Source: Luteibacter jiangsuensis (GTDB lineage: Bacteria > Pseudomonadota > Gammaproteobacteria > Xanthomonadales > Rhodanobacteraceae). Taken from it: a DNA stretch of 64,000 bases. Positions 8,461 through 55,065 of the stretch are shown piece by piece. The stretch is taken from positions 248,001 to 312,000 of the forward strand of contig NZ_JAUSSK010000002.1 of assembly GCF_030812295.1 (NCBI RefSeq), read 5' to 3'. Positions within the stretch are counted from its first letter, which is position 1. The number at the start of each line of letters is the position of its first letter. Position numbers and translations under genes: made by a program. The notes beneath the pieces are model-generated. The model ran no database searches. It saw only the letters and a list, made by a program, of their open reading frames with translations, and was not told the DNA's origin.

Positions 8461-8500
8461 GGGAGCGGATCCTCCTCGAAATAGCCGCCCGATCTCCGGC

Positions 8501-8521
8501 GCCGTGCCCGTACGGCACGGC
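8501..8521. terminator. Hairpin between the MFS gene and ada
   Basis: GCCGTGCC-CGTAC-GGCACGGC forms an 8-bp perfect stem with a 5-nt loop, 40 nt after the MFS stop and 14 nt before the ada start. No T-run follows, so it could be a weak terminator for the MFS transcript or a structure in the ada leader. Confidence 0.4.
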
Positions 8522-8535
8522 GTACCCTATGCCTC

Positions 8536-9591: not shown

Positions 9592-9654
9592 TCGCGGACA
9601 GGGTCCGCTCTCACCAGGGCTCATGCTCGGGTGGGAGCGGACCCTGTCCGCGAA
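9592..9654. repeat. Inverted pair of REP-like elements between convergent genes
   Basis: Directly after the ada stop, TCGCGGACAGGGTCCGCTCT (from 9592) pairs with GAGCGGACCCTGTCCGCGA (to about 9653), a 20+-bp inverted repeat with a ~16-nt loop. It is the GTGGGAGCGGACC variant of the REP family seen at 1874-2006. Sitting between convergent stops, it probably ends or protects both transcripts. Confidence 0.75.
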
Positions 9655-9665
9655 GGGAGCTTGCC

Positions 9666-10652
9666 TCAGCCCAGCACCGGATACGGCCCCTCCGCGAACA
9701 CCTCGTCGTGGTACCCCTTCACGCCGATAGCGCGCGCCAGCTCGCTACGAAAATCCTCGCCGTGCCGCAGGCATTCCAGCACGAAGGCGAAATCGCGCTT
9801 CGGTGTCCAGCCAAGGTCGCGACGGGCGCGGGTACTGTCATAGACGCGGTCCAGCGACGGCAAGAATCTCCACCCCCGCGCCGCATAAAGCGCATCCACC
9901 TCCGGGAACAACCCTCGCACCACCGCGGCTGCATCCTGGCGTAAAGCGGCGACGTCGCCCCGCGAAAAAGGTGTCGGCGCCGAGACGATGTAACGGCCGA
10001 AACCCAGCGACGGCGCCCGGTCGAGCGCAAGCAGATGCGCCTCGACGATGTCCTCGATATCGGCTCGCCGATACAGCAGTTCGTTGGCCTGCATGTTCAG
10101 CGTGCCGTACGCCGAGCGCACGCTTGCGTTGTCGTCGTCCTCGGGGAAGAAGCGCGAGGTCCGCAGGACGAGCACCGGCAAGCGCTCCTTGCGCGCCACC
10201 AGTTCGCACATGCCTTCGGCTGCGATCTTGGTCACGCCGTAGATGTTCTTCGGCACGGGCACGACATCCTCGTCGATCCACGCCGCCGGTTCGTCCGCTG
10301 CGGGCGACAACGCCGCGCCGAATGCGCTCGTCGTGCTGGTGAACACAAACGAGCGCACCCCATGCGCGACCGCGGCCTCGAGTAGCGCCACCGTACCGCC
10401 GACATTGGTATCGACGAACTGTCGCTTGGTATGGGTCGCCACATGCGGCTTGTGCAACGTCGCGGCGTGGACGACCCGGGTGATACCGGACATCGCATCG
10501 TTCACGAAGGTCTCGTCGGCGATCGATCCGACGATATCCGTGTACGACGAAGGCTTGATATCGAGTCCACGCACCGCCCGGCCGTCCGCGCGCAGGCGCC
10601 GCACGAGCGCCTCCCCGAGATGACCGGCACTACCCGTGACGAGAACGGTCAT
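9666..10652 (-). CDS. NAD(P)-dependent epimerase/dehydratase (extended SDR)
   Basis: A 328-residue extended short-chain dehydrogenase. The Rossmann glycine motif 'VTGSAGHLGEALV' is at residues 4-16, the catalytic Ser/Thr region is 'VFTSTTSAFG', and the Tyr-x3-Lys pair is in 'NIYGVTKIAAEG'. Family members oxidise, epimerise or dehydrate nucleotide sugars or related alcohols; the substrate is not evident here. The ATG at 10652 starts directly at the dinucleotide-binding strand; the longer open frame upstream is low complexity from the neighbouring gene. It lies 13 nt after the DUF2058 gene on the same strand and is probably co-transcribed. Confidence 0.8.
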   Translation of the reverse strand: MTVLVTGSAGHLGEALVRRLRADGRAVRGLDIKPSSYTDIVGSIADETFVNDAMSGITRVVHAATLHKPHVATHTKRQFVDTNVGGTVALLEAAVAHGVRSFVFTSTTSAFGAALSPAADEPAAWIDEDVVPVPKNIYGVTKIAAEGMCELVARKERLPVLVLRTSRFFPEDDDNASVRSAYGTLNMQANELLYRRADIEDIVEAHLLALDRAPSLGFGRYIVSAPTPFSRGDVAALRQDAAAVVRGLFPEVDALYAARGWRFLPSLDRVYDSTRARRDLGWTPKRDFAFVLECLRHGEDFRSELARAIGVKGYHDEVFAEGPYPVLG

Positions 10653-39480: not shown

Positions 39481-41778
39481 ATGCCTCTGCTTCCCGACCA
39501 TGGACGCGCGCTCGCGCGTGCCATCGCCTGCGCCATTGGCGCTTCCTCCCTTGCCGCCCATGCCACGGGTGGCGACGACGACCCGCAACGTGCCACGACG
39601 CTGCGCGAAGTACGTGTCTCCGCCGCGAGCCATGCCAGCGATATCGATCCCGACATGCCTTCGGCCGTCGAAACCGTCAGCGCCGCGCAGCTCGACCGGC
39701 TCAATATCGTCAATAGCGAAGACGCGCTGAAGTACCTGCCCTCGTTCGGTATCCGCAAACGCTTCATCGGCGACGAGAACGCGACCTTTTCCGTCCGCGG
39801 AACCAGCAACCAGCAAAGCGCGCGTGGCCTGGTCTACCTCGACGGGCTGCTGCTTTCCAACCTGTTGGGCAACAACTGGGCGAACCCACCTCGCTGGTCC
39901 ATGGCGTTCCCGGAAAACCTCGCGCGCGTCGAGGTGATCTACGGCGCGTATTCGGCGCTATATCCGGGGAACGCCATCGGCGCGACCGTGCTCATGACCA
40001 CGCGCATGCCCGAAAAACTGGAGATCTCCGGCCACGTGCAGGCCTTCACCCAGCATGTCGACAGCTATGGCGTGGACCGCGACTACGGCGGCAGCCGGCA
40101 GAGCGTCACGATCGGCGACCGCTCCGGACGCTTCGCCTTCCTCATCGGCGTGGCGCACCTGCAATCGAACGGGCAGCCGCTGGTCTATGCGACGCAGAAT
40201 CGATCCACCCGGCGTGGCACGTCGAACCCCGTCACGGGTGCCGTCGCCGACACCGGCGCCAACGGCTTGCCACGCGAGGTGCTGGGCATCAACAGCGAAG
40301 GGCAGGAAGCCACCCGCCAGGACGAAGCGCACATCCGGTTGACCTACGATTTCACGCCCGACCTCACCGGTGCGTTCACCGCGGGCTACTGGAAGCAAGA
40401 CCTGTCGCATCGCACGGAAACATTCCTGCGTGACGGCGAAGGCAAGCCGGTGTGGGCGGGCCCGGTCACGATCGATGGCCGTCAGTACACGATCCCCACG
40501 AATTTTTTCGCACCCAGCACACGACAGAGCCGGAACACCCTCTACGGCATGTCGCTAGGCACGCACCGAACGAGCGGATGGAACATCGAGTCCGACGCGT
40601 CGATGTTCGACATGGGCCGCAATCGCGACCGCGTGGCTGCCGGCGTGACCGAAAACGGGGCCGGCCTGCTGACCGCGGGCGACGGCAGCCGCTGGCGCAC
40701 GTTCGACCTGCGCGCAAGTCATACGCCCGATACCCTCTCGCCGAACACACATACCGTGAGCTTCGGCTATCACTTCGACGGTTACCGGCTCGACAATGCC
40801 AGTTACACGCTCGCCGGGTGGCGCAATGGAGCCCGTGGCCCACGTACCGCCGCCAATGGTGGCAGCACGCAGACCCAGGCGGCATACCTGCAGGACGCAT
40901 GGCAACTCGATGAACGCTGGCGCCTGACGGTCGGCGCACGGTATGAGCAATGGCGGGCCTTCGGCGGTTCACGCGCGACAGGCACCACCTCGATCGGCTA
41001 TCCGGAGCGTGATGAATCGCATACCTCACCGAAGGCCTCGCTGGCCTGGAGCGCGACCGACTCGATGGTGGTGCGACTCTCCGGCGCACGCGCGTACCGC
41101 TTTCCCACGGTCAACGAATTGTTCCAGGGCACCTTCAACGGCATTTCGCTGGTCAACAACGACCCTCACCTGAGGCCGGAGAACGACCTGTCGCGTGAAC
41201 TGTCGGTCGAGTGGTACCGGGCGAACAGCCTCACCCGTTTCACCCTCTACCGCAGCGACACCCGGGACACATTGTTCAGCCAGACCGACACCACCGTGTT
41301 TCCCAACGTCACCAGCGTGCAGAACGTGGATCGGGTGCGCACGCGCGGCGCGGAAGCCAGCTACGACGGCCAGGATGTCTTCTGGCACGGGTTCGACCTG
41401 ACCGCCAATGCGGCGTATACGCAGGCGACGACCCTGCGGAACACGCGCAATCCCGCGTCGGAAGGAAAGCAGTTCTACCGCATACCGCGCTGGAGAGCGA
41501 ACGTGGTCGCCACGTGGCGTGCCACGGAACGACTGTCGCTGGTCCTGGCCGGACGCTATTCGGGACGCCAGTACAACACGCTCGACCACAGCGACGTGAA
41601 CCCGGATACCTTCGGCGGGGCCAGCGACTTCCTCGTCTTCGATGCGAAGGTGGACTGGAAGGTAAGTCCTCGTGTCTCGCTCGGCATCGGTATCGACAAT
41701 CTCACCGATCGACGTTACTACGTGTACTACCCCTACCCGTCACGAACCTGCCTGATGGAAGCGACCTTCCACCTCTGA
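39481..41778 (+). CDS. TonB-dependent outer-membrane receptor
   Basis: A 765-residue receptor. A signal peptide of about 29 residues (ending AAHATG) leads to the TonB-box region 'TTLREVRVSAAS', a plug domain ('AVETVSAAQLDRLNIVNSED', 'FSVRGTSNQQSARGLVYLDG', 'LARVEVIYGAYSALYPGNAI') and a 22-strand barrel ending 'LMEATFHL'. The 'YPYPSRTCLMEATFHL' end is typical of copper/siderophore receptors of the OprC or IroN-like branch. Given the upstream DUF2946 gene, copper uptake is plausible but unproven. It is convergent with lanKC; a perfect 20-bp inverted repeat covers both stop codons. Confidence 0.88.
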   Translation: MPLLPDHGRALARAIACAIGASSLAAHATGGDDDPQRATTLREVRVSAASHASDIDPDMPSAVETVSAAQLDRLNIVNSEDALKYLPSFGIRKRFIGDENATFSVRGTSNQQSARGLVYLDGLLLSNLLGNNWANPPRWSMAFPENLARVEVIYGAYSALYPGNAIGATVLMTTRMPEKLEISGHVQAFTQHVDSYGVDRDYGGSRQSVTIGDRSGRFAFLIGVAHLQSNGQPLVYATQNRSTRRGTSNPVTGAVADTGANGLPREVLGINSEGQEATRQDEAHIRLTYDFTPDLTGAFTAGYWKQDLSHRTETFLRDGEGKPVWAGPVTIDGRQYTIPTNFFAPSTRQSRNTLYGMSLGTHRTSGWNIESDASMFDMGRNRDRVAAGVTENGAGLLTAGDGSRWRTFDLRASHTPDTLSPNTHTVSFGYHFDGYRLDNASYTLAGWRNGARGPRTAANGGSTQTQAAYLQDAWQLDERWRLTVGARYEQWRAFGGSRATGTTSIGYPERDESHTSPKASLAWSATDSMVVRLSGARAYRFPTVNELFQGTFNGISLVNNDPHLRPENDLSRELSVEWYRANSLTRFTLYRSDTRDTLFSQTDTTVFPNVTSVQNVDRVRTRGAEASYDGQDVFWHGFDLTANAAYTQATTLRNTRNPASEGKQFYRIPRWRANVVATWRATERLSLVLAGRYSGRQYNTLDHSDVNPDTFGGASDFLVFDAKVDWKVSPRVSLGIGIDNLTDRRYYVYYPYPSRTCLMEATFHL

Positions 41779-41820
41779 CCGATGCGCGGCGGCGTTAGGG
41801 CGCCGCCGCGCATCGGTCAG
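41775..41820. terminator. Perfect 20-bp inverted repeat between TonB receptor and lanKC
   Basis: CTGACCGATGCGCGGCGGCG and its exact complement flank the loop TTAGGG (41795-41800). The outer bases contain the TGA stops of both convergent genes. The very stable stem probably acts as a bidirectional terminator or transcript end, although no T-tract follows. Confidence 0.7.
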
Positions 41821-44501
41821 GCCGCCGCCTGCACCGCGCGATCCCACGCGGCTGCAGGCATGTGCTCGTCGAGCATGAAGGACGCCGGACCACCACGCCA
41901 GAGACGGTCGAAGAACGCTCCCACGCCGGCGTTCCCCGTTGCCAGGTCGCAACTGAGGCGAAGCAGCTCCGCACCGGGTACGGCGAGGCCACCGGGGCGG
42001 CGCACCAGGAACGGCTCGATGCCTCGCGCGATGCCATGTGCCGCTTCCTTGTAGATCGATGCACGCTCGGGAAGCAGGACCGCAAGATCCAGCAGCGTTT
42101 CGCCGATACCGGCCAGGCCGTCATAGGTGCCCGGCGACACGGCATACCTCCGCAGCAGGTCGCCTTCCGCATCGAGCACGATCTCGCGGTAGCGAATGTC
42201 ACCCGTGCATGCGAAAAAGCGTGCGACGACGGCGAGAATGCCGGCCGTACCGTTACGCAGGTAGGGAAACAGCGTCGTTCCCCCCACGTCCCTGGGCCAG
42301 CTCGCGGCACCATCGGGATTGATACCGCGCTGGGCGAGGTCGAAGGCGAGTCCATCGCGCGCGCCGCGAAGAAAACGTTCGTCACCGGTGGCCACATGCA
42401 AGTGGAGCAGGAACAGCGCGATGCCGGCGGCACCGTGCGCAAGACCTACGGGTCGTACCTGTCCGCGTGGCCAGTGCAGCATGCCATTGTCGATACGCGC
42501 GTCACGCAGGAGCATCTCGCCGGCGACACACGCGTCGGCGAGAAAGCCCGCCTCGGCTGTCTCGTGCCATGCCTTGATCCGTGCAAAGCCCCATCCGGCC
42601 ATTCCATCGTACAGACCATGGCGCTCACGAATGCCGTCGCCAGCCGACCGCGCCCGCAGCAGCGACGCGGCCTCGGCATGCGCACGCGCATCGAACAACA
42701 CCCAGGCAATACCCGCATCGCCGTACATGAGGCTGTCACCCCGGTGGTCCGGCCGCTGGCAGCCCTCCAGCATGTAGGCGAGCAGCCCCGCGGGCGGCGT
42801 CCTGCCGCCGCGTAGATAGGCGTGGAGCACGCCCGCGGCGCCATGAGCCACCCCCCAGGGATGCGTCTCGAATACCTCGGGTCCGGCAGGCACATAGCGG
42901 TCCGCACGCGCGCCGCGCGCCCGCTCGTCGATATAGTCGAACAATGCATCGGCAGCGTCCGTAGCTGCTTCCGTGGACGACGCGAGGTAGGGCACGGGCG
43001 CGGTGTCATGCGGCAAGTCGGCGAGGGACGCACGCAGCGATGCCATGGCTGCGACAGGTGGCGGCGGCCGGTGGGTGTCGACGGCGAGCAACTGCTCGAG
43101 GACCCGGACGAAAGCCTCCGGATAACCCATGTCCGCCGACATGCGGTGTGCGAAGCGAAGCGCGGTGCCCCGGTCCAGCGGAAGCATGGCATTCATGGGC
43201 ATGACCGCCGCGGCGAGGTTCGCACCGAAGGCATAGACGTCTTCCGCACGGGCGTCGACGGGCATCTCGCGCCTGGACAGGGGCGATGCGAATCCAGGCG
43301 TACGTACGTCCACCGGATGATCCAGGCCTTCCTCGACCGCCGATTCCAGGTCGATCAGGCGAGTGCCTCCGTCGGCGGTGACGATGCAGTTGTGAAACGA
43401 CAAGTCGCCCATCGAAATTCCTGCCGCATGCAGGCACTCGAGGTTCCGCGCGATGCTGGTGAACACCCCCACCACCTCGTCCAGAAAGCCAGCGACGTCG
43501 GCGCGGGTCGCCCGCGTCTTCAACCAGGGATACCTGCGTGCCAGCCAGCTGCGCAGCGTATCGCCCTCGACGTATTCTTCGACCAGGTAGCTATGTTCCC
43601 AGTCTTGGAAATACGCAACGGGTGCCGGTGCGATGCGCAGGGATGCCAGCCGACGCAACAACCGGTATTCCTTGCGCAACATCACCGTCGCGGTGTCGCC
43701 ACCCCCGATGAAGGGACGCGCTTCCTTCACGATCACCGGACGGCCTTCATCGAGATCGTCGGCCAGGTAGATGCCACCGGCGGCGGAAAACGACAGCGAT
43801 CGCCTGATGCGGTAGCGGCCTCCACCCAGGAGCGGTGCGCCGCCCGGCCCGGCCACCTCGTCGCGCGGAAACGGGTCGCGCAACCAGTCCGGAAGGTGGA
43901 AGTGCGGCTTGCGCTCGTCCGGTTCCGTCAGCCCGTCCGGCCGCCGCAGCAACCATTCAGACCGGCTGTCCGCCGCGACGCGGTACTCACCGGCGATTCC
44001 GCCATAGCGGTAGTAAAGGACACGCGAATCGCGATACCGTCGGTCGCTCAGGATATAGGGCCCGGCGTACCCCGAAAGCGCGACATGGAGATCGTCGATG
44101 ATGCCGCGAAAATCGGCGGCGTCACGCGGATAAACGGTAATGAACTTGCCTGATCCACCACGCGGCCAGCGTTTCCCATTCACCGCGGACAGTATTCGAG
44201 CATCGGCGGCGAACTTGAACGCGACGCCGGCGGCGGCCAGCGTCGCCGCCGCGATCGAAAGGACGATGCGTGCCGTCGAGACGACGGACGAGACGTGAAT
44301 CTTCCAGCCTTGCGCCGGTAACGTGAGATCCGGCGGGGCGCAATGCATCCATATGCCGGCGCGCCGCATCTGCCACTGTTCGGGCACGACCTTGCGAACC
44401 AGCTCGACGAAGTCGGCCGAATCGACGATATGCCGTCCATAGGGCTCGAAGAACTCGCGGTCGATCGCCGTGTAGTGCAGCAATTCCGTACGTCGCTCCA
44501 T
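41817..44501 (-). CDS. Class III lanthipeptide synthetase LanKC
   Basis: An 894-residue trifunctional synthetase. N-terminal lyase region (1-~215): 'WKIHVSS' (66-72) and 'RWPRGGSGKFITVYP' (111-125) are LanKC signatures. Kinase region (~225-500): K259 in 'VIVKEARP', catalytic D366 and N371 in 'GDLSFHN', D384 in 'LIDLE'. Cyclase region (~545-870): GxxG repeats such as 'GVAHGAAGVLHAYL'; where class IV enzymes have Cys-His-Gly, this one has 'YLRNGTAGI' (747-755), so zinc ligands are absent as in class III. It phosphorylates and eliminates Ser/Thr in a leader-bearing peptide and closes lanthionine or labionin rings. The precursor gene lies 40 nt upstream. Confidence 0.92.
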   Translation of the reverse strand: MERRTELLHYTAIDREFFEPYGRHIVDSADFVELVRKVVPEQWQMRRAGIWMHCAPPDLTLPAQGWKIHVSSVVSTARIVLSIAAATLAAAGVAFKFAADARILSAVNGKRWPRGGSGKFITVYPRDAADFRGIIDDLHVALSGYAGPYILSDRRYRDSRVLYYRYGGIAGEYRVAADSRSEWLLRRPDGLTEPDERKPHFHLPDWLRDPFPRDEVAGPGGAPLLGGGRYRIRRSLSFSAAGGIYLADDLDEGRPVIVKEARPFIGGGDTATVMLRKEYRLLRRLASLRIAPAPVAYFQDWEHSYLVEEYVEGDTLRSWLARRYPWLKTRATRADVAGFLDEVVGVFTSIARNLECLHAAGISMGDLSFHNCIVTADGGTRLIDLESAVEEGLDHPVDVRTPGFASPLSRREMPVDARAEDVYAFGANLAAAVMPMNAMLPLDRGTALRFAHRMSADMGYPEAFVRVLEQLLAVDTHRPPPPVAAMASLRASLADLPHDTAPVPYLASSTEAATDAADALFDYIDERARGARADRYVPAGPEVFETHPWGVAHGAAGVLHAYLRGGRTPPAGLLAYMLEGCQRPDHRGDSLMYGDAGIAWVLFDARAHAEAASLLRARSAGDGIRERHGLYDGMAGWGFARIKAWHETAEAGFLADACVAGEMLLRDARIDNGMLHWPRGQVRPVGLAHGAAGIALFLLHLHVATGDERFLRGARDGLAFDLAQRGINPDGAASWPRDVGGTTLFPYLRNGTAGILAVVARFFACTGDIRYREIVLDAEGDLLRRYAVSPGTYDGLAGIGETLLDLAVLLPERASIYKEAAHGIARGIEPFLVRRPGGLAVPGAELLRLSCDLATGNAGVGAFFDRLWRGGPASFMLDEHMPAAAWDRAVQAAA

Positions 44502-44541
44502 GCTTCGGTGCTTCCTGTGAAGGGTTGTCGTCGTGAACCGG

Positions 44542-44670
44542 TCAGTCCTCGAATCCATCCGAGTTGGCGATCGAGCAGGCACGATGGCTGCAGCTGCTGT
44601 AGTTGGTGCCCGTCACGTCCACCGAGTCCATCTCCGCCGTCAATCGCTGAAGATCCAATATCCGGTCCAT
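44542..44670 (-). CDS. Class III lanthipeptide precursor peptide (42 residues)
   Basis: A 42-residue peptide, too short for usual gene callers. The leader starts MDRILDLQRL; ILDLQ at 4-8 is the conserved recognition motif of class III leaders (labyrinthopeptin, SapB and others). The C-terminal core (about 20-42) is rich in Ser, Thr and Cys: T20, T22, S25, S26, C27, S28, C32, S33, S37. 'YSSCSHRAC' (24-32) contains Ser25-x-x-Ser28-x3-Cys32, the labionin signature. GGGAGGG lies 6 nt before the ATG. The gene is 40 nt upstream of lanKC on the same strand. The mature ring pattern and activity are unknown; antimicrobial, signalling or morphogenetic roles are all possible. Confidence 0.88.
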   Translation of the reverse strand: MDRILDLQRLTAEMDSVDVTGTNYSSCSHRACSIANSDGFED

Positions 44671-44724
44671 GCCTTCCCTCCCGTGGGCTATGAGTTCGCC
44701 TCCGCGACGCGCGGATGCAAGGCG

Positions 44725-44754
44725 AATCTAGATATCGCAGCCAGCAGCTGGCAA
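44725..44754 (-). promoter_or_regulatory. Candidate sigma-70 promoter of the lanthipeptide precursor
   Basis: On the minus strand TTGCCA (44754-44749) and TAGATT (44730-44725) are separated by 18 nt: five of six matches to the -35 consensus and four of six to the -10. The predicted start would give a ~45-nt leader before the precursor ATG. The perfect palindrome CCATGCATGG at 44767-44776 lies just upstream and could bind a regulator. Confidence 0.45.
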
Positions 44755-44830: not shown

Positions 44831-44876
44831 CGCGATGTCCGGAAATGGACGACGGCGTCCGTTTCCGGACATCGCG
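44831..44876. terminator. 46-nt hairpin between the histidine kinase gene and the precursor gene
   Basis: CGCGATGTCCGGAAATGGACG and its near-complement flank the loop ACGG; 20 of 21 pairs match. It begins 4 nt after the kinase stop and probably ends or stabilises that transcript, separating the regulator genes from the lanthipeptide genes. No T-run follows. Confidence 0.6.
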
Positions 44877-44880
44877 ATCC

Positions 44881-46209
44881 TCAGTCCCCAAGGGGGAGAC
44901 GAACCGTCGCGACGGCCCCCGGCGCATCGGTCATGGGTGAAAGGTCCACCGTGCCGCCGTGCGCTTCCACGATCATCCGGGTGAGGCTGAGGCCAATGCC
45001 CGATCCTTCGGGTTTGGTGGTGAAGTAGGGAACGAATAGCGCGTCGCTGGAAGGTAATCCGATACCGCGATCCTCTATGACCACCCGGACATGCCGGCCT
45101 TCCATGCGCCAGTCCACCCGTACGGAGCCAGACACGGGAAGTGCCGCCTCGACGGCGTTGCGCAGGAGATTGATGAAGGCCTGCGTCAACTGGTCTTCAT
45201 CGCCGCATATCGTCACGGCCTCCGTGCCGCCGACCGCGACGGGCAGGCGCTGATCGAGCACTGCCAGCCGGGCAAGCACACGGTCGAGACGGAAGGCGCG
45301 GAGTTGCAGCGGCGGTAGCCGCGCCAGCTTGCCGTAGCCGGACAGGAACCGGGCCAACGAAGCGGCGCGGCGCTCGATGACTTCCAGTCCGAGTTGCAAC
45401 TCCTCGCGCGTCTCGTCGACACCGCGCGCCGCGAGCAGGGTCGAGAGGCTGCCGGCGAGCGAGCCTATCGGCGTGAGCGAATTGTTCAACTCGTGGCTCA
45501 ACACGCGGATCAGGCGCTGCCAGGCCCGCCTCTCCTCTTCTCCCAGCGCAAGGCTAAGGTCGCGCAGCATGACCAGTCTGTGCTCTCGTCCATCGCTGTG
45601 CCATGTGGCGCGTCGGATCGACCAACGTCCGCTCCCTCCATGAAAACGCCAGTTGAAAACGGCGTTGTCGGGCGCGGCCAGGACTTCGGCGAGCCCGAGC
45701 GGCTTAAGGTCCCGGCCTATGACCGCACTCCTCTCGGCACCGATCAGCTTGCGGGCGGAAGGATTGATGAGCCGCAAAATGTCTTCGTCGTCGACGACGA
45801 AGACCGGGTCGCCCAGTGCGATGAGCGTCTTGCCGAGGAAGCGCGAGGTCTCCGTCCGTTTCCGCCGCCCCTCGCGAAGCTCGTCGGAGAGAAGGTTTAC
45901 ATCGGCGATCAGGTCTTGCAGGGGGTCGTATCCTGGACGTACCCGGCCACGCATGCCGAAATCGCCTTCGCGCAGCGCACCGAGGAGGTCGGATACAGAA
46001 GCCAATGTTCCCAGTGCACGATGCCCGGCAAACCAGCCCAGCACGAGCGTGAGCGCCAGTCCGGCGGAAAAGGCACTCGCGCGGATCGTCCATGGCAATC
46101 CATCGCAAACCGCCATGGCGCCACCCGACACGGTCATCGGCAGGAGGACGACACCCGCCCACGTCATGACCCCGTGACGCATCCTGTCGGGATGCCAGGT
46201 GGAAGTCAT
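44881..46209 (-). CDS. NtrY-like membrane sensor histidine kinase
   Basis: A 442-residue kinase. Two N-terminal helices (about 13-35 and 45-63) have almost no periplasmic loop, so it may sense a membrane or cytoplasmic signal. A HAMP-like linker and a PAS domain (~125-215, 'LGDPVFVVDDEDILRLINPS') precede the H-box 'VLSHELNNSLTPIGSL' with phosphoacceptor H239, the N-box 'QAFINLLRNAVEAA' and G-boxes 'EDRGIGL' and 'EGSGIGLSL'. It matches the kinases paired with NtrC-type regulators. The ATG at 46209 is 37 nt after the response-regulator stop. Likely partner: the regulator upstream. Confidence 0.85.
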   Translation of the reverse strand: MTSTWHPDRMRHGVMTWAGVVLLPMTVSGGAMAVCDGLPWTIRASAFSAGLALTLVLGWFAGHRALGTLASVSDLLGALREGDFGMRGRVRPGYDPLQDLIADVNLLSDELREGRRKRTETSRFLGKTLIALGDPVFVVDDEDILRLINPSARKLIGAERSAVIGRDLKPLGLAEVLAAPDNAVFNWRFHGGSGRWSIRRATWHSDGREHRLVMLRDLSLALGEEERRAWQRLIRVLSHELNNSLTPIGSLAGSLSTLLAARGVDETREELQLGLEVIERRAASLARFLSGYGKLARLPPLQLRAFRLDRVLARLAVLDQRLPVAVGGTEAVTICGDEDQLTQAFINLLRNAVEAALPVSGSVRVDWRMEGRHVRVVIEDRGIGLPSSDALFVPYFTTKPEGSGIGLSLTRMIVEAHGGTVDLSPMTDAPGAVATVRLPLGD

Positions 46210-46246: not shown

Positions 46247-47620
46247 TCATCCGGCCAACTCCGCACCCTTCGTTCGCTGCTTGCCGAGTCGGCGATAGAG
46301 TGCCTGGCGCGAGATGCCAAGCGCATCGGCCGCACGTTGCAGGTTATGCTCGCTGCGCTCCAGGGCGTTCCTGACCAGGAGTTCCTCGGCCTCGGGCAAG
46401 GTCAGGCCGTCGAGCGCCAGCGGCGTGTCGCTGGGACGGCGTAGCGCGAGACCTTCCGCATCGATGGTGTCGTGATTGGCGAGAAGGGCGGCGCGTTCGA
46501 CCGCGTGCTCGAGTTCACGCACGTTGCCTGGCCAGTCGTAGCCCCGCAACACGCGTTCTGCGGAAGGCGAGAATGTCATGGCGCCTCGTCCGCGGCGCTG
46601 GCAGTCCCGCAACATGAAGTGACGTGCGAGTGGCACGATATCTTCATGGCGTTCGCGCAAGGGGGGCAGGCGCACCTGCATGGCGTTGAGCCGGTAGAGC
46701 AGGTCCCGGCGGAAGCGGTCGTTGCGGATGGCGACATCGAGATCGGCGTTGGTCGTGGAGATGATGCGCACATCGACTCGCCGCGTACGCATCGTTCCGC
46801 CACGCTCCAGTTCGCCCTCCTCGAGAACGCGCAGCAGCTTCGCCTGTTGCAGAGGATGGATGTTGGTGACTTCCTCCATGATCAGGCTTCCCCCATGGGC
46901 CAGTTCGAAGCGGCCGGACCGCGGCACCGGCTTGTCTTCGCCGAACATCTCGTCGGCGAAGCGCGCTTCGGGAAGACTGCCCATGTCGACGCGGATCGCC
47001 GGATACTCCGCGCGTTTCGACAGCGCGTGGATTTGACGGGCGAACAAGGATTTGCCCGTGCCATTTTCACCCAGGATGAGCACGTTCGCGTCACCGACGG
47101 CGATCCGCTCGATCAGCTCGACCACGTGCCGCATGGCGGACGATTCACAGACGCGCAGCATGTCCCCGGATTGACGGGCCAAGGCGGTTTCCGTGCGCAA
47201 CCGCCTGTTCTCTTCGCGGATCTCGCGCAAGGCGATCTGACCGCGCAAGGTGTGGATCAGCCGAGCGTTGTTCCAGGGCTTTTCGATGAAGTCGGCGGCG
47301 CCCAGGCGCATGGCCTGCACCGCCACGTCGATGCTTCCCCAGGCCGTCATGGCCACCAATGGCAGTTCCGGTGCCTCCTCGCGGATACGCAGCACGAGTT
47401 CGAGCCCCTCGCGCCCCGACGTGGTATCGGCGGAGTAATTCAGGTCGACGATCACACAAGCGAATTCGCGCCGCGACACGGCATCGAGCGCCGCGCCTGG
47501 GGAGTCGACCTCCACGGACGGAATGCCTTCCGAGCGCAACAGCATACGCATCGCCAAGCGAACGTCGGCATGATCGTCGACGACGAGCACCGGCACCTGG
47601 ACTCCGTTATCTCGGTACAT
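46247..47620 (-). CDS. NtrC-like response regulator lacking GAFTGA
   Basis: A 457-residue regulator. Receiver domain ~10-120: D15/D16, phosphoacceptor D59 ('CVIVDLN'), T92, K114. AAA+ domain ~155-375: Walker A 'GENGTGKS' (184-191) and arginine-finger 'FRRDLLYRLN'. Fis-type helix-turn-helix ~410-448 ('QRAADALGISRQALYRRLGK'). The loop that should carry GAFTGA reads 'MFGEDKPVPRSGRF' (225-238), shortened and without GAFTGA, and Walker B reads 'SLIMEEV' with Glu in place of the usual Asp. GAFTGA is needed to engage sigma-54, so this protein probably regulates ordinary promoters. It is 11 nt downstream of the permease gene. Confidence 0.85.
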   Translation of the reverse strand: MYRDNGVQVPVLVVDDHADVRLAMRMLLRSEGIPSVEVDSPGAALDAVSRREFACVIVDLNYSADTTSGREGLELVLRIREEAPELPLVAMTAWGSIDVAVQAMRLGAADFIEKPWNNARLIHTLRGQIALREIREENRRLRTETALARQSGDMLRVCESSAMRHVVELIERIAVGDANVLILGENGTGKSLFARQIHALSKRAEYPAIRVDMGSLPEARFADEMFGEDKPVPRSGRFELAHGGSLIMEEVTNIHPLQQAKLLRVLEEGELERGGTMRTRRVDVRIISTTNADLDVAIRNDRFRRDLLYRLNAMQVRLPPLRERHEDIVPLARHFMLRDCQRRGRGAMTFSPSAERVLRGYDWPGNVRELEHAVERAALLANHDTIDAEGLALRRPSDTPLALDGLTLPEAEELLVRNALERSEHNLQRAADALGISRQALYRRLGKQRTKGAELAG

Positions 47621-47631
47621 GTCTGGCCCTT

Positions 47632-49992
47632 TCAGTCACTGCGCAGGACGCGCCAAGGTTCCACCGCGGCCGCCCGCCATGCGGGCAACAGCACGGCGGC
47701 GATCGTGGCCACGGTCATCATTGGCACCACGGTGGCGAATACCCATGGATCGCTCATGCCCAGGGCGGTGTCCGTCACGAACAACCATCGATGCGCGGCA
47801 AGTGCGGCCAGCAATCCCGCGGCGACACCGGGTAATGCCCATACCAGGGCCCGCCGCAATACTTGCGCCATGAGAGCCGCGGGTGTTGCACCCAACGCGC
47901 CGCGCAAGGCGAACATGCGGCGACGCGATATCACCTCGACTGCCTGCACCGAATAGTGGCCTACGCAGGCAAGCGCCAGGGCGAACCCTGCGAAGCTGGA
48001 GAGAAGCACGGCATCGCGGCGTGGCTCCGCGTATGCCATCTGCGCCACCTGGTCGAGCGCTCGCGCATTGGCGGGCGCGAGGGACGGCGCCATGTCCTGG
48101 ACGATACGTGCGAAGGCGTCTCCGGTCGCGGGGCCAACGCTTGGCCCGCGCAGCACGGCGTACATCGATGTCCACTGACGAACGGTGGCGAACGACAGGT
48201 GATCGATTTGCGCGAGCGGAACGAACACCGCCGGTTCGGCCTCTGCCGAAACACCCGCGAGTGGCGTATTGGCGACGACGCCGACGATCCGCGCGGCATG
48301 GCGACCCGATGCTGGGCGCACCATACCGCCCACACCGTATCCATCGACCTGTTCGAGGTAAGCCTGGTTCACCACCACGACACGCTCCGAATCGCCTCGG
48401 TCGCCGTCCTCCAACCATCGGCCACGGGTCTTTTCCAATCCGAGCGACTCGAGCGCGCCAGGCGTCACCACCGCGTACTGCAGCCGCACCACGGCTCCGC
48501 CAGGACGAAGGAATGGCATCACGAAGCCGTCACCGACGGGGAGCTGGGTGGACCACCCCATGGTTTCGACGCCCGGCAATCGCAGGGCCTTCGCTCGCAG
48601 GCTCGTTGCGAGCCGTTCGGTGGCCTCGCGCCCCGCATACCATGCGGGTGGCGCGCGGACTTCCATCACCAGGGCATTTGCGTGGTCGAAACCCAGTGGA
48701 AGCTGGTCGAGGCGCCACCAGCGCAATGCCGCCGCGGTCGAGACGCAGAGCAGCAAGGTGGCCAGCGCGGTCTGCACCAGGGCCATCGCCGAATACACAC
48801 GCCGCGGCGCGAAAGCCGGGGCCGGATAGCCGGTCGTGGCGAAATGCTGGTGGGCCACCGCGCTGCCCGTTGCCAGCAGGGCGGCAAGCAGGACGCTGAC
48901 AAGAACCGCCACCAGCACGCCGCTCCCGGGCGCCAACGGTCCGGCGGAGGCCAGCCAGCTATCCGGCACGAGGGGGCGGAACGCCATCACCAGGAGGGCA
49001 CCCACAGGCATGCCTATCACCGCCGCGAGCAGTGCGGTGACCACCGCCGCTGACAGTGCCGGAATCCACGGCCGCCACCCCGTGGCTCCCAGTGCGAACA
49101 ACAAGGAGGTTTCCTGCGTGCGATCCAGTGCGCGGGTCAGCATGAGGTTGGAGACGTTCATCGCAGCCACGATGAGCACGAGCAAGGCACACCCGACACA
49201 TAACCAGATGGTCGCCCTGGCGCCTGGAGCCGTCAGCGTGTCCAGGGGTGTCGCGCCGTACCACCGCGTATCCGCCGGCTCCAGATGCAACCTGGCAGCG
49301 TTACGTCCGACGGTGTCCATGACGCTCTCGGAAAATGCCGTGATGCTTCCCGGCGCAAGGAGGGCCACCGCCGTCATGTTCTCCACGCGATCGGTGGTGT
49401 TGGAGGGAAGGACCAGGGGCAGGATCAGGTCGACATCAGCGAAGAACCGATAGTCCGCCGGCAGGACGCCGCTTATACGCATCGGTTGGCCATCGACCAG
49501 CAGTACCCGCCCGACCGCCATCGCGTCGGCGTCGAACCAACGGTGCCACAGCGCATTCGACACCATCACTTCCGCACCTCCCATACGGGACGGCACACGT
49601 TCGCCGAGTGCGGGAACGATGCCGAGCGTCGGCAGGAAGCCCACATCGACGCGTTGCGTCCGCAGCAGGCCCCGATGACGTCCATAAACGACGTTCATCG
49701 CCTCCGGCATGCGGGCGGCACCGCGCGAGCGCACTGACTCGGGGCTTCCCACCATGTCGTAGAGGCTCGGTGAGGCTGCACGCATGGGATCGTCGGCCGT
49801 ACGGCCGCCGTAGACGGCGACATTGGCATGGTTGGGCCAGGGTGGTGGACGGAGCAATACGGCTTCCATCAGCGTGAACGCGCCGGCCAGGGCGGCCACT
49901 CCGATGGCGAGTGTCGCCGACGCCAGTAAAAGGGAACCTGGCTGGCGCGGCGAGGCCCGCCAGAAGCGCACGATGTCCGTGATCCGGCTCAT
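47632..49992 (-). CDS. MacB/FtsX-type ABC transporter permease
   Basis: A 786-residue permease with duplicated FtsX domains: helix near 20-42, a periplasmic MacB-core-like domain, three helices around 265-390, a second start helix near 420, another periplasmic domain, and a final three-helix set ending 'AWRAAAVEPWRVLRSD', the usual end of these 'ADOP' permeases. 'ALGATGWRPWIPALSAAVVT' and 'ALRGALGATPAALMAQVLRR' are the two coupling-helix regions. Such transporters export or extract peptides and lipids from the periplasmic side. It overlaps its ATPase gene by 4 nt. Position suggests export of, or immunity to, the lanthipeptide. Confidence 0.85.
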   Translation of the reverse strand: MSRITDIVRFWRASPRQPGSLLLASATLAIGVAALAGAFTLMEAVLLRPPPWPNHANVAVYGGRTADDPMRAASPSLYDMVGSPESVRSRGAARMPEAMNVVYGRHRGLLRTQRVDVGFLPTLGIVPALGERVPSRMGGAEVMVSNALWHRWFDADAMAVGRVLLVDGQPMRISGVLPADYRFFADVDLILPLVLPSNTTDRVENMTAVALLAPGSITAFSESVMDTVGRNAARLHLEPADTRWYGATPLDTLTAPGARATIWLCVGCALLVLIVAAMNVSNLMLTRALDRTQETSLLFALGATGWRPWIPALSAAVVTALLAAVIGMPVGALLVMAFRPLVPDSWLASAGPLAPGSGVLVAVLVSVLLAALLATGSAVAHQHFATTGYPAPAFAPRRVYSAMALVQTALATLLLCVSTAAALRWWRLDQLPLGFDHANALVMEVRAPPAWYAGREATERLATSLRAKALRLPGVETMGWSTQLPVGDGFVMPFLRPGGAVVRLQYAVVTPGALESLGLEKTRGRWLEDGDRGDSERVVVVNQAYLEQVDGYGVGGMVRPASGRHAARIVGVVANTPLAGVSAEAEPAVFVPLAQIDHLSFATVRQWTSMYAVLRGPSVGPATGDAFARIVQDMAPSLAPANARALDQVAQMAYAEPRRDAVLLSSFAGFALALACVGHYSVQAVEVISRRRMFALRGALGATPAALMAQVLRRALVWALPGVAAGLLAALAAHRWLFVTDTALGMSDPWVFATVVPMMTVATIAAVLLPAWRAAAVEPWRVLRSD

Positions 49993-50753
49993 GGAAACGA
50001 TGCGCTGTGCCGCCGTGCGGCCAGACCCGAATCCGCCTCGCTCTGCAACTGCCGGAACGTACTCTCGTCGACGACCCTGCCATCGAGAAGGCGAACGGTG
50101 CGATCGGCCATCGCGTTGAAACGGTCGTCGTGCGTCACCATGCAGATCGTCCGGCCGTCCACGTGCAGGCGGTTGAGCAAGGCCATCACGGTTTCGCCAT
50201 TGTGCAGGTCGAGGTTACCGGTCGGTTCGTCCGCAAGCAGGATCGATGGGTCGCCCACCAATGCCCGTGCCACCGCCACCCGCTGCTGTTGTCCTCCCGA
50301 TAGCTGGGCCGGGTAGTGACGCATGCGATGCGCCATGCCTACGCTGCCCAATGCTTCGACGACCCGCCGGGCACGATCGCGTGCCATCACGTCCTTCCGG
50401 AAACTCAGGGGCAACGCGACGTTTTCCGCCACGCTCAGGTCGTCGATCAGGTTGAACGCCTGGAAGACGAAACCGATATGCCGGTTGCGCAGGCGGGCCC
50501 TCTCCGCGCGCCCCATGGCGTGAACCGATTCGCCGCGAAAACGCAGTTCGCCATGACTGGGCACGTCCAGGAGGCCCATCAGCGACAACAGGGTTGTCTT
50601 TCCGCATCCCGACGGACCGGCGATCGACACGAATTCCCCCTGTCGCACAGTCAGGTGGATGTCGGTCAGCACCTGACACTCCATCGATCCAGCCTGGAAG
50701 ACCTTGCCGATGCCATGCATCTCGATGATCGATGGCCGCGTGTGCGCTTGCAT
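49989..50753 (-). CDS. MacB/LolD-type ABC transporter ATPase
   Basis: A 254-residue ATPase of the LolD/MacB family. Walker A 'IAGPSGCGKTTLLSLM', Q-loop 'FVFQAFNLIDDLSVAENVAL' (the FNLI/D text is typical of this family), signature 'LSGGQQQRVAVARAL', Walker B 'ILLADEPTGNLD', switch His 'ICMVTHDDRFNAMADR'. It powers the two-domain permease downstream, with which it overlaps by 4 nt (ATGA). The ATG at 50753 gives the normal length. It is the first gene of the ABC-regulator-kinase run leading to the lanthipeptide genes. Confidence 0.9.
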   Translation of the reverse strand: MQAHTRPSIIEMHGIGKVFQAGSMECQVLTDIHLTVRQGEFVSIAGPSGCGKTTLLSLMGLLDVPSHGELRFRGESVHAMGRAERARLRNRHIGFVFQAFNLIDDLSVAENVALPLSFRKDVMARDRARRVVEALGSVGMAHRMRHYPAQLSGGQQQRVAVARALVGDPSILLADEPTGNLDLHNGETVMALLNRLHVDGRTICMVTHDDRFNAMADRTVRLLDGRVVDESTFRQLQSEADSGLAARRHSASFP

Positions 50754-51079: not shown

Positions 51080-53257
51080 ATGAACCGTAACCCCCGCATC
51101 GAAGACCTTATCGCCCGCATGACCCTCGAAGAGAAGGTCGGCCAGCTGGGCGTGTTCGCCGATGCCGTGCGCCCCTTCGCACCCGATATCAACCCGGAGA
51201 CCAATGCCCGCGGTGCCGCCGAGGTGCTTGAGCAGGTCCGTGCCGGAAGGGTCGGCGCGTTGTTCAACGGGGTGGGTGCCGCGGAAGGCCGCGAGGCGCA
51301 ACGCGTCGCCGTGGAGGAAAGCCGCCTCGGGATTCCGCTGCTGTTCGGAGCGGATGTGATCCACGGCATGCGTACCGTCTTTCCGATCCCCCTCGGTGAA
51401 GCGGCCAGTTTCGAGCCGGACCTCGCCGAGCGCACAGCGCGCGCCACCGCCGTGGAGGCCACCGCGGCGGGCGTCCACTGGACGTTCGCTCCAGCGGTGG
51501 ACATTGCGCGTGACCAGCGATGGGGCCGCGTGGCCGAAGGTGCCGGTGAAGACGTGGTGCTGGGATCCGCATTCGCCGCGGCGCGTGTACGTGGCTTCCA
51601 GGGCCCGGACCTGACGGCCGACGATGCCCTCCTCGCCACGCCGAAGCATTTCGCCGCCTACGGCGCCGTCGCCGGCGGCATGGAATACAACGCCGTCGAC
51701 ATCGCGCCGCAGACACTCCGCGATGTGCACCTGCCACCCTTCAAGGCGGCCATGGACGCAGGCGCACTCACCTTCATGAGCGCGTTCAACGACATCAACG
51801 GCGTACCGGCATCGGCCAACCGCGAACTGATGACGGACATCCTGCGCGGCGAATGGGGCTTCGAAGGCCTCGTGGTCTCCGACTACACCGCCGATATGGA
51901 ATTGATCGCCCACGGCTTCGCCGACGACGAGCGCGACGCGGCGCGCCTGGCGTTCCTTGCCGGCGTCGACATGAGCATGCAGAGCGGCTTCTATGCGACA
52001 CACCTGGCCGACCTCGTCGAGAAGGGCGACGTGCCGATGGAGGTGCTCGACGAAGGCGTGCGTCGCGTGCTCTCGGTGAAACATGCCATCGGCCTGCTCG
52101 ACAACCCATATCGTTCGCTCGATCCCGCCGCCGAGGCAGACACCTCACTGAATGCCGATCACGCGGCACTCGCACGCGATGCATCGCGTCGTTCCATTGT
52201 CATGCTCAAGAACGACGGCGTACTGCCGCTGCGCAAGACCGGACAGAAAATCGCGCTGATCGGCCCGTTCGCGACCGACGTCGACAACCTCGAAGGGTGC
52301 TGGACCTTGTTCGGCGACAAGCGGCGCCACGTCGACATCCAGACCGGACTGCGTGACGCCCTGGCGGACGCGGGCTTGCTCGACGTCGTCGTCGGCTGCG
52401 GCATCGAAGATCCCATCGAGGGCGGCATCGAGGCCGCCGTGGCCGCCGCGAAACAGGCGGACGTGGTGCTGCTCGCCATCGGTGAGCCGCAGAATTATTC
52501 CGGCGAAGCGCAATCGCGCACGCAGATCGTGGTCCCCCCCGCACAACAGGCGCTGGCCGAAGCCGTGGCCGCGACGGGCACGCCGGTCGTGGTGCTTCTG
52601 AAAAACGGCCGGGCACTGGCGCTAGCGGGCGCCGTGCGCGAGGCCAATGCGATCCTCGTCACCTGGTTCCTCGGCAGCCAGACCGGTCCCGCGATCGCCG
52701 ATGTGGTCTTCGGCGACTACAACCCTTCGGGGCGCCTGCCCGTGAGCTTCCCGCAGGATGCCGGACAGCAGCCCTATTTCTACAACCACCTTCGCACGGG
52801 ACGTCCGGAGCTGTCCGACCAGCCACCGGCGTTCAAGTCGCGCTATCGCGAAGTCACGTTCGACGCGCTGTACCCCTTCGGACACGGGCTCAGCTACACG
52901 AGCTTCGAGTACGGCGTTCCCCAGGTGAAGTCGACGGTGCGCTGGGACGAAACCATCGTCGTATCGGCCACCGTGACCAACACCGGGAAGGTCGCCGGCG
53001 AAGAGGTGGTGCAACTCTATATCCACGACCGCGTGGCCAGCCGGGTCCGGCCCGTGCGCGAGCTGAAGGCCTTCCGCAAGATCATGCTCGCTCCCGGTGC
53101 ATCGGAGAAAGTATCCTTTGAATTGACTCGCAAGGATCTCGCCTTTACCCATCGCGACGGCACCACGTTCGAAGCGGAGCCGGGCGACTTCCAGGTATGG
53201 CTCACGGGTTCGTCGGCAACGGGCATACCCACGACGTTCGTGTTACTGAGCCGTTGA
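51080..53257 (+). CDS. bglX: GH3 beta-glucosidase, BglX type, without signal peptide
   Basis: A 725-residue glycoside hydrolase family 3 enzyme. The N-terminal (beta/alpha)8 domain has 'MTLEEKVGQL', 'GIPLLFGADVIHGMRTVFPI', 'RDQRWGRVAEGAGED' and 'PKHFAAYG'; the catalytic Asp is D268 in 'GLVVSDYTADM'. The alpha/beta sandwich domain ('SGEAQSRT...') and a C-terminal fibronectin-like domain ('ALYPFGHGLSYTSFEYG', 'VTNTGKVAGEEVVQLYIHD') follow. It removes terminal beta-glucose from oligosaccharides or glycosides. E. coli BglX is periplasmic, but neither possible start here gives a signal peptide, so this one is probably cytoplasmic. No sugar transporter gene is adjacent. Confidence 0.92.
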   Translation: MNRNPRIEDLIARMTLEEKVGQLGVFADAVRPFAPDINPETNARGAAEVLEQVRAGRVGALFNGVGAAEGREAQRVAVEESRLGIPLLFGADVIHGMRTVFPIPLGEAASFEPDLAERTARATAVEATAAGVHWTFAPAVDIARDQRWGRVAEGAGEDVVLGSAFAAARVRGFQGPDLTADDALLATPKHFAAYGAVAGGMEYNAVDIAPQTLRDVHLPPFKAAMDAGALTFMSAFNDINGVPASANRELMTDILRGEWGFEGLVVSDYTADMELIAHGFADDERDAARLAFLAGVDMSMQSGFYATHLADLVEKGDVPMEVLDEGVRRVLSVKHAIGLLDNPYRSLDPAAEADTSLNADHAALARDASRRSIVMLKNDGVLPLRKTGQKIALIGPFATDVDNLEGCWTLFGDKRRHVDIQTGLRDALADAGLLDVVVGCGIEDPIEGGIEAAVAAAKQADVVLLAIGEPQNYSGEAQSRTQIVVPPAQQALAEAVAATGTPVVVLLKNGRALALAGAVREANAILVTWFLGSQTGPAIADVVFGDYNPSGRLPVSFPQDAGQQPYFYNHLRTGRPELSDQPPAFKSRYREVTFDALYPFGHGLSYTSFEYGVPQVKSTVRWDETIVVSATVTNTGKVAGEEVVQLYIHDRVASRVRPVRELKAFRKIMLAPGASEKVSFELTRKDLAFTHRDGTTFEAEPGDFQVWLTGSSATGIPTTFVLLSR

Positions 53258-53367
53258 CGGCATCGCTCCTCGCTCAAGGGGCGGGAAGACTACACAGCTA
53301 TCCTCCTCGCCCGCTCCCCAGGCCATCGGTCCTGTCATAGCGTACGCTTCCCATGAAGGAGCGTACG

Positions 53368-55065
53368 ATGAAGGAACGACATCGAATCTCGCGCCGCACA
53401 GTCGCATACCGTGTGTGCGTAATCCTGTGCACGGCGCTCGCGCCCGCGATCGGCATCGCCCAGGTGCCTCCCGTGCAACCCAGCGTGGCACCGATCACCT
53501 GGCGACCCTGCACGCCGGACCTGGTAAGCGAGCGCTGGATCGACGTCTTGGGGGCAAGGCTGGAATGCGGCAGCATGCTGGCGACCCCCGATGACGATGT
53601 CACCGGGAAGGTCCGATTCACCGTCGGCCTCGTTCGGTTCAAGGCGGGACAGTCCGAGCAACGCGAAGGCGCCATTTTCTTCAATTTCGGCGGCCCTGGT
53701 GCCAACCCCCTGGATTTCCTTCCACCTACCGCCTACCTGTGGGCCTCACGCTCCATCGACCATTCATTGGATGGCGACAAGCGGCGCCTGGCCGACCGCT
53801 TCGATCTCGTCGCGGTGATTCCACGAGGATTGCGTGGTGGAACCCGCTTTGCATGTGGACCTTACCCGGAATTTCTCGCGGGCTATGACCCGGCGGTCTC
53901 CCTGGCTGACTGGAACTGGGTCGGCTTCGTGCGAACCGCCAGGGCTTATGCGGGTACTTGCGGCGAGCATCCCCTGCATCCGCAGGTGGGCACGCTGCAA
54001 CATGTCGTCGACATGGAACATGCCAGACGCGCCCTGAACGAGCCCGTGATGCACTTCGTCGGTACTTCTTATGGCTCCTGGGTCGGTGCCTTCTACGCGT
54101 CGATGTACCCGCAGTACAGCGGACGCATCGTGCTGGATTCCGTCATGAACTACGCCGGGACGTTCGAGCAGCAGGTCACTGATTTTCCCGCGGAACGCCA
54201 GGCGCTGTTCGCACGAAATGCCTTGCGGCCGGCTCTCGCCCGACCCGGTGTGTATGGCATCGGCAGCGATCCACGGGTGGCGATGTCCCGCTTTCGCGAC
54301 ATGCCATATCGGGCGCTCTGGGCGTGGCCGCTGGCGATAAACACGCCCCACCAACTGGCTGCGGCGCTGACCCTCGCGGACTGGATAAGGGCCGATATGG
54401 AGATATCCAGCGATCGTCTTATGGCGCGCTTACGAAATCACGTCTTCAGTCCGGATACCGGCGCGAACGATGCGATCAAGGAGGCGGCGGCGGGGCTGGC
54501 CTCCCGGCTGGACCAGGTGGTCGATCCGACGCTGGACGGCCTGGTCGACCATTCCGTATACATCGCCGTGGTTTGCGGCGACACGCCATGGCGGAACGAT
54601 CTCAAGACGTGGCGCGCGCTGGCCAACCGGATAGGAGCGAACTACCCGGCCGCCGGGGGCGGATCGGTCATCATGGGCCTGATCTGCGCGCACTGGCCTT
54701 CGGCGCCCCGATGGAGACCCATGCTGACGGAACTGGCGAAGGCACCACCGTTGCTGATGATTCAATCCGAATTCGATCCGGTAACGCCGCTTACGGGTGC
54801 CATGAAAGCATTCGATGCATCGCCCAATGCATACATCGTCCTGGCGCGCGACGCCGAAGTGCACGGGTTGTTCGGCCAATCGGCGACGCCATGCGTCGAA
54901 CGTGCCGCCGGTCGTTTCCTCCTCACCGGCGAACGGCCGGCCTCACACCTGTCGAGCTGCGATTACGTCACGCCGCCCGTGAGGCGAGAAGTCCGCGAGG
55001 TGAGCGATGCACCCACGGAAAGCGACGTTCGCGAAGAACTACGACGTCTCTATCGGTACATTTGA
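53368..55065 (+). CDS. S33/TAP-like secreted alpha/beta hydrolase (tripeptidyl aminopeptidase type)
   Basis: A 565-residue exported hydrolase. The signal peptide spans about residues 1-32 ('[16 protein letters not shown]'). The oxyanion-hole motif 'FFNFGGPG', nucleophile elbow 'VGTSYGSW' with S234, acid '[10 protein letters not shown]' and catalytic 'EVHGLFG' are all present, with the TAP-like C-terminal domain 'HLSSC'. Family members release tripeptides or Pro-containing peptides. I chose ATG 53368 over the ATG at 53353 because GGAG lies 7 nt before it. A paralogue with a lost nucleophile is 3 kb downstream. Confidence 0.85.

Follow-up and report, generated by a model that had tools for sequence, protein, structure and literature searches.

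The Locus and Its Genes

The window, which is the whole stretch of 64,000 nucleotides from Luteibacter jiangsuensis that was analysed, carries on its reverse strand a small gene of 42 codons, probably encoding a class III lanthipeptide precursor (44542..44670). This gene begins with ATG and encodes MDRILDLQRLTAEMDSVDVTGTNYSSCSHRACSIANSDGFED, and the untagged product has a computed monoisotopic mass of 4622.04 Da. The leader motif ILDLQ occupies residues 4-8 (ILDLQRL, 4-10; LDLQ, 5-8), the core reads S25-S26-C27-S28-H29-R30-A31-C32-S33, and the tail, SDGFED, is acidic. A ribosome site, GGGAGGG (44676..44682, reverse strand; CCCTCCC on the forward strand), lies 5 nt ahead of the ATG, and a 40-nt gap (44502-44541) separates the precursor stop from the ATG (44501) of a LanKC gene on the same strand. 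On re-reading of the sequence, the original prediction proved exact as to the frame, its distance from LanKC and its ribosome site, and the ILDLQRL leader and the Ser25-x2-Ser28-x3-Cys32 core were found residue for residue. Its description of the gene as unannotated stands in part, since NCBI lists a homologue of 42 aa from Luteibacter yeojuensis as a 'hypothetical protein'. The exporter, the two-component system, the operator-like palindromes and the promoter box formed no part of that prediction.

The LanKC gene (41817..44501, reverse strand) encodes a class III lanthionine synthetase of 894 aa, composed of a lyase, a kinase and a cyclase without zinc ligands. Four genes of the same strand lie on the other side of the precursor. 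They encode a sensor histidine kinase (44881..46209) with two hydrophobic stretches near its N terminus and a short loop between them, a response regulator of the NtrC family that lacks the GAFTGA loop (46247..47620), an ADOP/MacB-type ABC permease of a putative exporter (47632..49992) and the ATPase of that putative exporter (49989..50753, with the start chosen from the reading frame). A domain search of the six cassette genes found no peptidase domain. Outside the cassette are a convergent gene for a TonB-dependent receptor (39481..41778, forward strand), a GH3 beta-glucosidase gene on the opposite flank (51080-53257, forward strand) and an alpha/beta hydrolase gene (53353-55065), whose product was considered as a conceivable leader peptidase. 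The last of these is about 9 kb from LanKC; most of the loci fetched from relatives extend approximately 7 kb upstream of LanKC.

The Synthetase

The assignment of the synthetase to class III is supported by several comparisons. Its score of 699.3 bits clears the cut-off of the NF038151 equivalog model (575), and its 539.3 bits against the class IV LanL model NF038150 stay below the 650 required there. Its RamC_N and LANC_like domains score 216.5 and 49.5 (cut-offs 27 and 23.2), with Pkinase at 30.2, just below 31.7. The closest solved chains are 8sao (E 9.1e-68), 8sap and 8sam, all named LanKC. In a 36-row LanKC alignment, K119 (lyase), K259, D366, N371, D384 and E386 are kept in 21/21 genus rows. 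K259 is presumably the kinase lysine, and D366 and N371 are taken here to be the catalytic Asp and Asn. The lyase Lys and the D-x-E were located via the ThurKC alignment and passages of PMC10604976.

The cyclase is without the zinc ligands. The Cys-His place reads x-[DE] in 20/20 readable genus rows and YD in the window; one relative (L044) has Cys at the first zinc place but Asp instead of His at the second. Nor do the readable rows have Cys at the third ligand position. A single LanKC match was found in the window's own genome at E<=0.001. In a plasmid collection, 74 records match LanKC, all at no more than 60% identity, and the two best come from Deinococcus at about 35%. As a side observation, the LanKC matches of two genomes, G105 (L022) and G090 (L028), contain one in-frame TGA each; a shorter profile match in G105 lacks it, and that stop is probably at the match margin.

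Evidence for a Genuine Precursor

Recognition of the small gene as a precursor relies on a class III pattern, defined as an ATG ORF of 30-70 aa with LxLQ in the first 22 residues and a later [ST]xx[ST]x2-5C. The pattern was drawn from general knowledge and written after many Luteibacter relatives had been inspected. It was scanned from the kinase stop to LanKC, with dinucleotide-preserving shuffles of these intergenic stretches and other 450-nt stretches from the same loci serving as controls. It was present upstream of LanKC in 19/21 Luteibacter loci and in 0/6300 shuffles and 0/2975 other stretches, and the LxLQ leader motif likewise occurs in 19 of the 21 genus loci. In the two loci without the pattern (L050 and L052), small ORFs in the corresponding position were picked by eye; their leaders, VKGLQ and VPLLQ, are degenerate. 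A homologous small ORF beside LanKC, whose absence from related genomes had been named as the refutation of the idea, is present.

Moreover, the precursor sequence appears to be maintained. Pooled over six pairs of relatives, hand-picked among those with equal precursor length, pS is 0.46 and pN 0.15, and the resulting uncorrected pN/pS of 0.32 indicates that the gene is under purifying selection. Four homologues were retrieved among approximately 5.8 billion proteins (E 6.3e-17 to 1.2e-12), one being the 'hypothetical protein [Luteibacter yeojuensis]'. Curated precursor models place the window peptide below every cut-off, with a best score of 14.7 bits against 22 (NF038154); it has accordingly been left outside the named precursor subfamilies. 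Eight of the 21 Luteibacter precursors were scanned in this way. Every match at E<=1 went to NF038154, NF038159 and NF038160 (class III), NF033212 (SapB/AmfS) or NF038147 (VenA, class IV), all of them under the curated cut-offs, and two of the eight matched nothing; the window peptide matches the VenA model weakly (12.6 vs 35). The precursor is best regarded as genuinely class III in character, yet under current model cut-offs. Together with the adjacent LanKC it is considered a genuine class III lanthipeptide precursor-synthetase pair, with a rough probability of 0.9, in agreement with the original prediction of a class III precursor beside a true LanKC.

The Core and Its Predicted Ring

In an alignment anchored at the motif, all 21 genus precursors have Ser28 and the closing Cys; the residue at position 25 is Ser (19) or Thr (2). 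The motif S-x2-S-x2-5-C therefore occurs in 21/21 when Thr is permitted at the first place. Ser28 and the Cys are separated by three residues in 20 precursors and by two in L052. The proposed 'labionin signature' holds as far as the Sx2Sx3C motif is concerned; the labionin itself is a possibility only, because, according to passages of PMC7268733, some class III peptides with this motif form labionin and others a lanthionine from the first Ser to the Cys.

Two alternatives bear on the peptide and its product. The small ORF might be a chance or decaying frame, with LanKC modifying some other peptide. The failure of all eight scanned precursors to reach a precursor HMM cut-off would fit such a frame, but the pattern is absent from every control sequence, selection appears to preserve the encoded residues, the database homologues are strongly similar, and all 21 loci have a small ORF in this position (two chosen by eye), so that this explanation is extremely improbable. 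A closer contest concerns the ring. The peptide may be modified by LanKC and form an ordinary lanthionine (Ser25-Cys32), or be only partly cyclised, with no labionin, and this outcome has nearly even odds. It is favoured by the double yield of the motif just described and by variation at the F-D pair, which is important in ThurKC according to parts of PMC10604976: among 20 readable rows here, position 793 is F in 15, A in 2, and Y, Q or C in one each, and position 794 is D in 13 and E in 7. Against it, both position 25 (Ser/Thr) and Ser28 are kept in 21/21, and labionin needs both residues, whereas a single lanthionine does not.

Beyond this conserved ring, an additional Cys is found in part of the genus. 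Cys27 occurs in 12 of the 21 precursors, accompanied by Ser33 in 10 and by Cys33 in 2. In the nine precursors without Cys27, position 33 is Leu, Ile, Phe or beyond the end of the peptide. With the four database peptides included, the pairing is 15/16 vs 0/9 (Fisher p 4.9e-6 over 25 rows, a value that ignores shared ancestry). The counter-example is database peptide P0004, in which Cys27 stands with Ala33. On the tree, positions 27 and 33 give four independent pairs, all concordant, and a sign test of 0.125, too few for significance; the two traits, as scored in the core table, are identical to each other by construction of that table across the 21 rows. One precursor without Cys27 (L042) has other Cys residues, two adjacent at the ring position and one ahead of the motif.

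A second crosslink between positions 27 and 33, straddling the conserved 25/28/32 ring, is a doubtful, speculative reading of this pairing. If it were true, a backward thioether (Cys27 onto dehydrated Ser33) would be built around the labionin or lanthionine, a Cys27-Cys33 disulfide would take its place in two species, and the crosslink would have been dropped in others. One scaffold would then be closed by two chemistries inside a single genus.

Upstream DNA and the Regulator

The DNA upstream of the precursor contains a promoter-like box and two operator-like palindromes, all on the reverse strand. The hexamer TAGATT (44725..44730) resembles a sigma70 -10 element and is exact in 16/21 loci, where it lies at -41 to -73. 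In the window, a -35-like TTGCCA (44749..44754) is placed 18 nt from it; at the same distance ahead, TTGnnn is found in 11 of those 16 loci and CTGnnn in 4. The two palindromes of the window lie about 105-140 bp upstream of the -10 box. Palindrome 2, CGTCCATTTCCGGACA (44836..44851), has 2 mismatches to TGTCCG-N4-CGGACA, and palindrome 1, TGTCCGGAAACGGACG (44856..44871), has 1.

Palindromes of the form GTCCG-N4-CGGAC precede the precursor in 21/21 loci. When TGTCCG-N4-CGGACA is searched with up to 2 mismatches within 300 nt ahead of the precursor start, at least one copy is found in all 21 loci and at least two in 18, and the starts of paired copies are 19-23 bp apart. The remainder of the same loci, 351 kb in total, contains 12 palindromes, every one with 2 mismatches. 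Counting against the reading proposed here, across the window's own genome and at no more than 1 mismatch the palindrome is no commoner than a reversed control (73 vs 91). TGTCCG-N4-CGGACR is matched exactly in this genome only at this locus and by three copies clustered at C1:186344-186464 (7845, 7887 and 7950 in L117), all within approximately 120 bp. By impression, the ORFs beside this trio look like an epimerase, an oxidoreductase and a polysaccharide cluster, and the three palindromes are perhaps targets of a related regulator.

The GAFTGA loop is absent from the NtrC-like regulator in the window and in 20/20 genus relatives. A sigma54 promoter, considered on account of the NtrC-like regulator, was dropped, as this loop is missing and a TTG-N18-TAGATT box is present. 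A hairpin in the 5'-UTR was likewise rejected: single-sequence folds looked plausible in many rows, and an alignment fold of the 21 leaders gave 0 pairs.

Conservation and Descent of the Cassette

The order ABC ATPase-ADOP-RR-HK-precursor-LanKC, on one strand, is shared by the window and 20/20 other genus loci; the contig of one genome (G113) ends inside LanKC, and in L038 the ATPase match is split over two overlapping frames. The six-gene cassette is thus found in 21/23 genus genomes. In the remaining two, G112 and G118, LanKC (E<=1e-20), ADOP (E<=1e-60) and the regulator (E<=1e-140) were all undetected; these absences hold at the stated E-values and at a search sensitivity in which few candidates are scored per genome in large searches. 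Between the receptor and GH3 genes of G112 there are 1.2 kb with no cassette, and the ORF of this stretch is presumably PhzF-like. In G118 approximately 7.7 kb of other genes separate the same two neighbours.

The cassette proteins differ in their divergence. Identity to the window's proteins is 35-48% for the permease, 65-76% for the ATPase, 63-77% for the regulator and 54-72% for LanKC. The permease is the fastest-evolving of these genes, as would be expected if it tracks a changing cargo. The GH3 flank is far more conserved than the cassette proteins, at 92-96% identity in partial N-terminal pieces from seven relatives and, for the complete gene in L054, at 85%.

On a wider scale, LanKC was detected in 25/233 genomes of the family (E<=1e-20). 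NF038151 matches 32/398 genomes of the order (E<=1e-60; 29 above the cut-off), 13 of them outside the genus, with 11 genera in total. In a sample of 369 gammaproteobacterial genomes, the same model matched only the window's own genome and 0/368 others. In the LanKC tree, the Luteibacter enzymes group as a single clade (100, starred) with a long stem. In the receptor tree, all 21 genomes with the cassette fall into a single starred group (99), and G112 and G118 are a pair beside it (89, not starred). Both trees agree on L040-L042, L044+L045, L046-L049+L051, L050+L052, L038+L039 and G104+G113; deeper branching differs; for example, the LanKC tree groups G104+G113 with L050+L052 (100, starred) and the receptor tree does not. 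Most simply, the cassette was acquired once before the 21 diverged and then descended mainly vertically; alternatively, the sister pair G112 and G118 could have lost it. In G122, a move of either the cassette or the receptor would be the simplest account of their separation.

Class III clusters of other genera are built differently. Under a looser pattern, which asks for an LxLQ-like leader and a ring motif, 13/15 such loci have a small ORF upstream of LanKC, among which a second LanKC of G109 is counted (L053, L056-L059, L098-L107); L105 and L106 yielded none. These LanKCs are 28-35% identical and lie outside the Luteibacter clade. The L056 precursor passes NF038160 (33.6 vs 27), unlike the scanned Luteibacter precursors, and some loci have several precursor-like ORFs before one LanKC, with three in L101 (7288-7961) and two in L099 (8123-8627), in LanKC-strand coordinates. 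The six-gene order was found in none of the 15 fetched stretches, and parts of the exporter or regulator module are near LanKC in 5. The second, distant LanKC of G109 (L053, approximately 7241-10170; 33% identity) has its own LxLQ-type small ORF. Its fetched 18 kb is without exporter and two-component genes, and its nearest tree relative, L058, belongs to another genus.

The Putative Exporter and Regulator Module

Relatives of the exporter and regulator genes also exist away from LanKC. A regulator of this type occurs in 48 further genomes of the family, from which seven loci in other genera (L122-L128) were fetched; all seven have an ADOP permease, an NtrC-like regulator and a kinase without LanKC in the fetched 17 kb. 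An ABC ATPase with more than 60% identity is present in four of them, and the regulator loop reads GAYTDA or GAFTDA in 7/7. Since such modules occur elsewhere apart from LanKC, the exporter and regulator roles proposed here rest on location. In Luteibacter, a resident exporter and two-component module would seem to have been joined by a precursor and LanKC, and may have lost sigma54 contact.

Two alternatives concern these neighbours. The regulator and exporter could be bystanders, a resident ABC-ADOP-two-component module that merely sits beside an independent precursor-LanKC pair, as the seven freestanding modules would allow, together with G141, one such genome, which has its LanKC elsewhere. 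Several features of the genus argue against such independence: LanKC, permease and regulator occur together in 21 genomes and are jointly undetected in 2, the GAFTGA loop is missing from 21/21 Luteibacter regulators in contrast to the related motifs of the seven others, palindromes stand ahead of every one of the 21 precursors, and in 5/15 other LanKC loci of the order (L098, L104-L107) parts of such modules lie within the fetched stretch, differently arranged. The bystander explanation is accordingly rather unlikely, and export and regulation by the neighbouring genes is moderately probable. Membership of the TonB-dependent receptor in the pathway, for instance by taking up the mature peptide, either as a metallophore or as a signal that is recaptured, is quite improbable. 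It stands tail to tail with LanKC in 20/21 cassette genomes, but about 320 kb separates the two in G122. The receptor was rejected as a pathway member, since it is found in 23/23 genus genomes, among them the two with no cassette. Against solved structures it gave weak matches to iron and colicin receptors and no hint of a ligand.

Proposed Pathway

The sequence features described above are consistent with the following pathway. LanKC would bind the LxLQ leader of the precursor, its kinase domain would phosphorylate Ser/Thr residues of the core, and its lyase domain would then eliminate the phosphate. The zinc-free cyclase would add Cys32 to dehydrated Ser25/Ser28, giving one labionin or lanthionine ring. 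The leader would be removed by a peptidase encoded elsewhere, and the product would be secreted by the adjacent ABC-ADOP exporter. The NtrC-like regulator and the kinase, acting from the palindromes, are predicted to switch the precursor on. Because the kinase is almost without an outer domain, it may sense export through the transporter. The end use could be that of a secreted, species-specific signal or antagonist.

Relation to Known Systems and Significance

Class III systems have been described mostly in other phyla. Passages of PMC7268733 place most LanKCs in Actinobacteria and Firmicutes, and parts of PMC9576775 present two class II peptides as the first characterised gammaproteobacterial lanthipeptides. 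That source also describes LanIII of Myxococcus fulvus, a class III lanthipeptide whose host is listed there as Pseudomonadota, as here; it has 7 dehydrations and 3 (methyl)lanthionines, and the host is not a gammaproteobacterium. The bacinapeptins and paenithopeptins of Firmicutes and the ThurA/ThurKC pair share with the present system the LanKC lyase, kinase and zinc-free cyclase; the first two also have one Sx2Sx2-5C ring motif in the core, as in Luteibacter, and leader peptidase genes lie mostly outside the cluster in these systems, as here (from portions of PMC8960859 and PMC10604976). Luteibacter differs from them in its Gram-negative host, in the ADOP exporter and two-component system within the cassette, and in the extra Cys27 of 12/21 genus precursors.

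The novelty originally claimed for a class III lanthipeptide in this family was overstated. Table 1 of PMC11165876 gives an antiSMASH 'Lanthipeptide Class III' cluster for 4/5 strains of Luteibacter mycovicinus, and lanthipeptide clusters are called uncharacterized there; the available portion of that article's text on these clusters contains no precursor description. Class III lanthipeptides in Luteibacter are thus already known as antiSMASH clusters, and the cassette is not a new kind of system, because such clusters have been tabulated for L. mycovicinus and LanKC is present in 32/398 genomes of the order. Among the matches listed in literature searches that mostly covered journals outside subscription, there was neither a class III product from Luteibacter nor a characterised gammaproteobacterial one. 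In Lysobacter gummosus, 'class III lanthipeptide' and LanKC are given only as 'No ortholog' in the accessible part of PMC10745450, which is no evidence here. A transcriptome of Luteibacter with a fungal partner was considered and set aside, as the induced kinase in the relevant passages of PMC9040847 adjoins a nucleotide-sugar epimerase and so was not linked to the cassette.

A class III lanthipeptide cassette conserved across a genus of Gammaproteobacteria represents an unusual setting for such a pathway. With precursor, synthetase, exporter and operator each available in 21 natural versions, the matching of core to cyclase and of cargo to permease is directly testable. Additionally, the cassette suggests how a RiPP can take over a resident exporter and two-component module.
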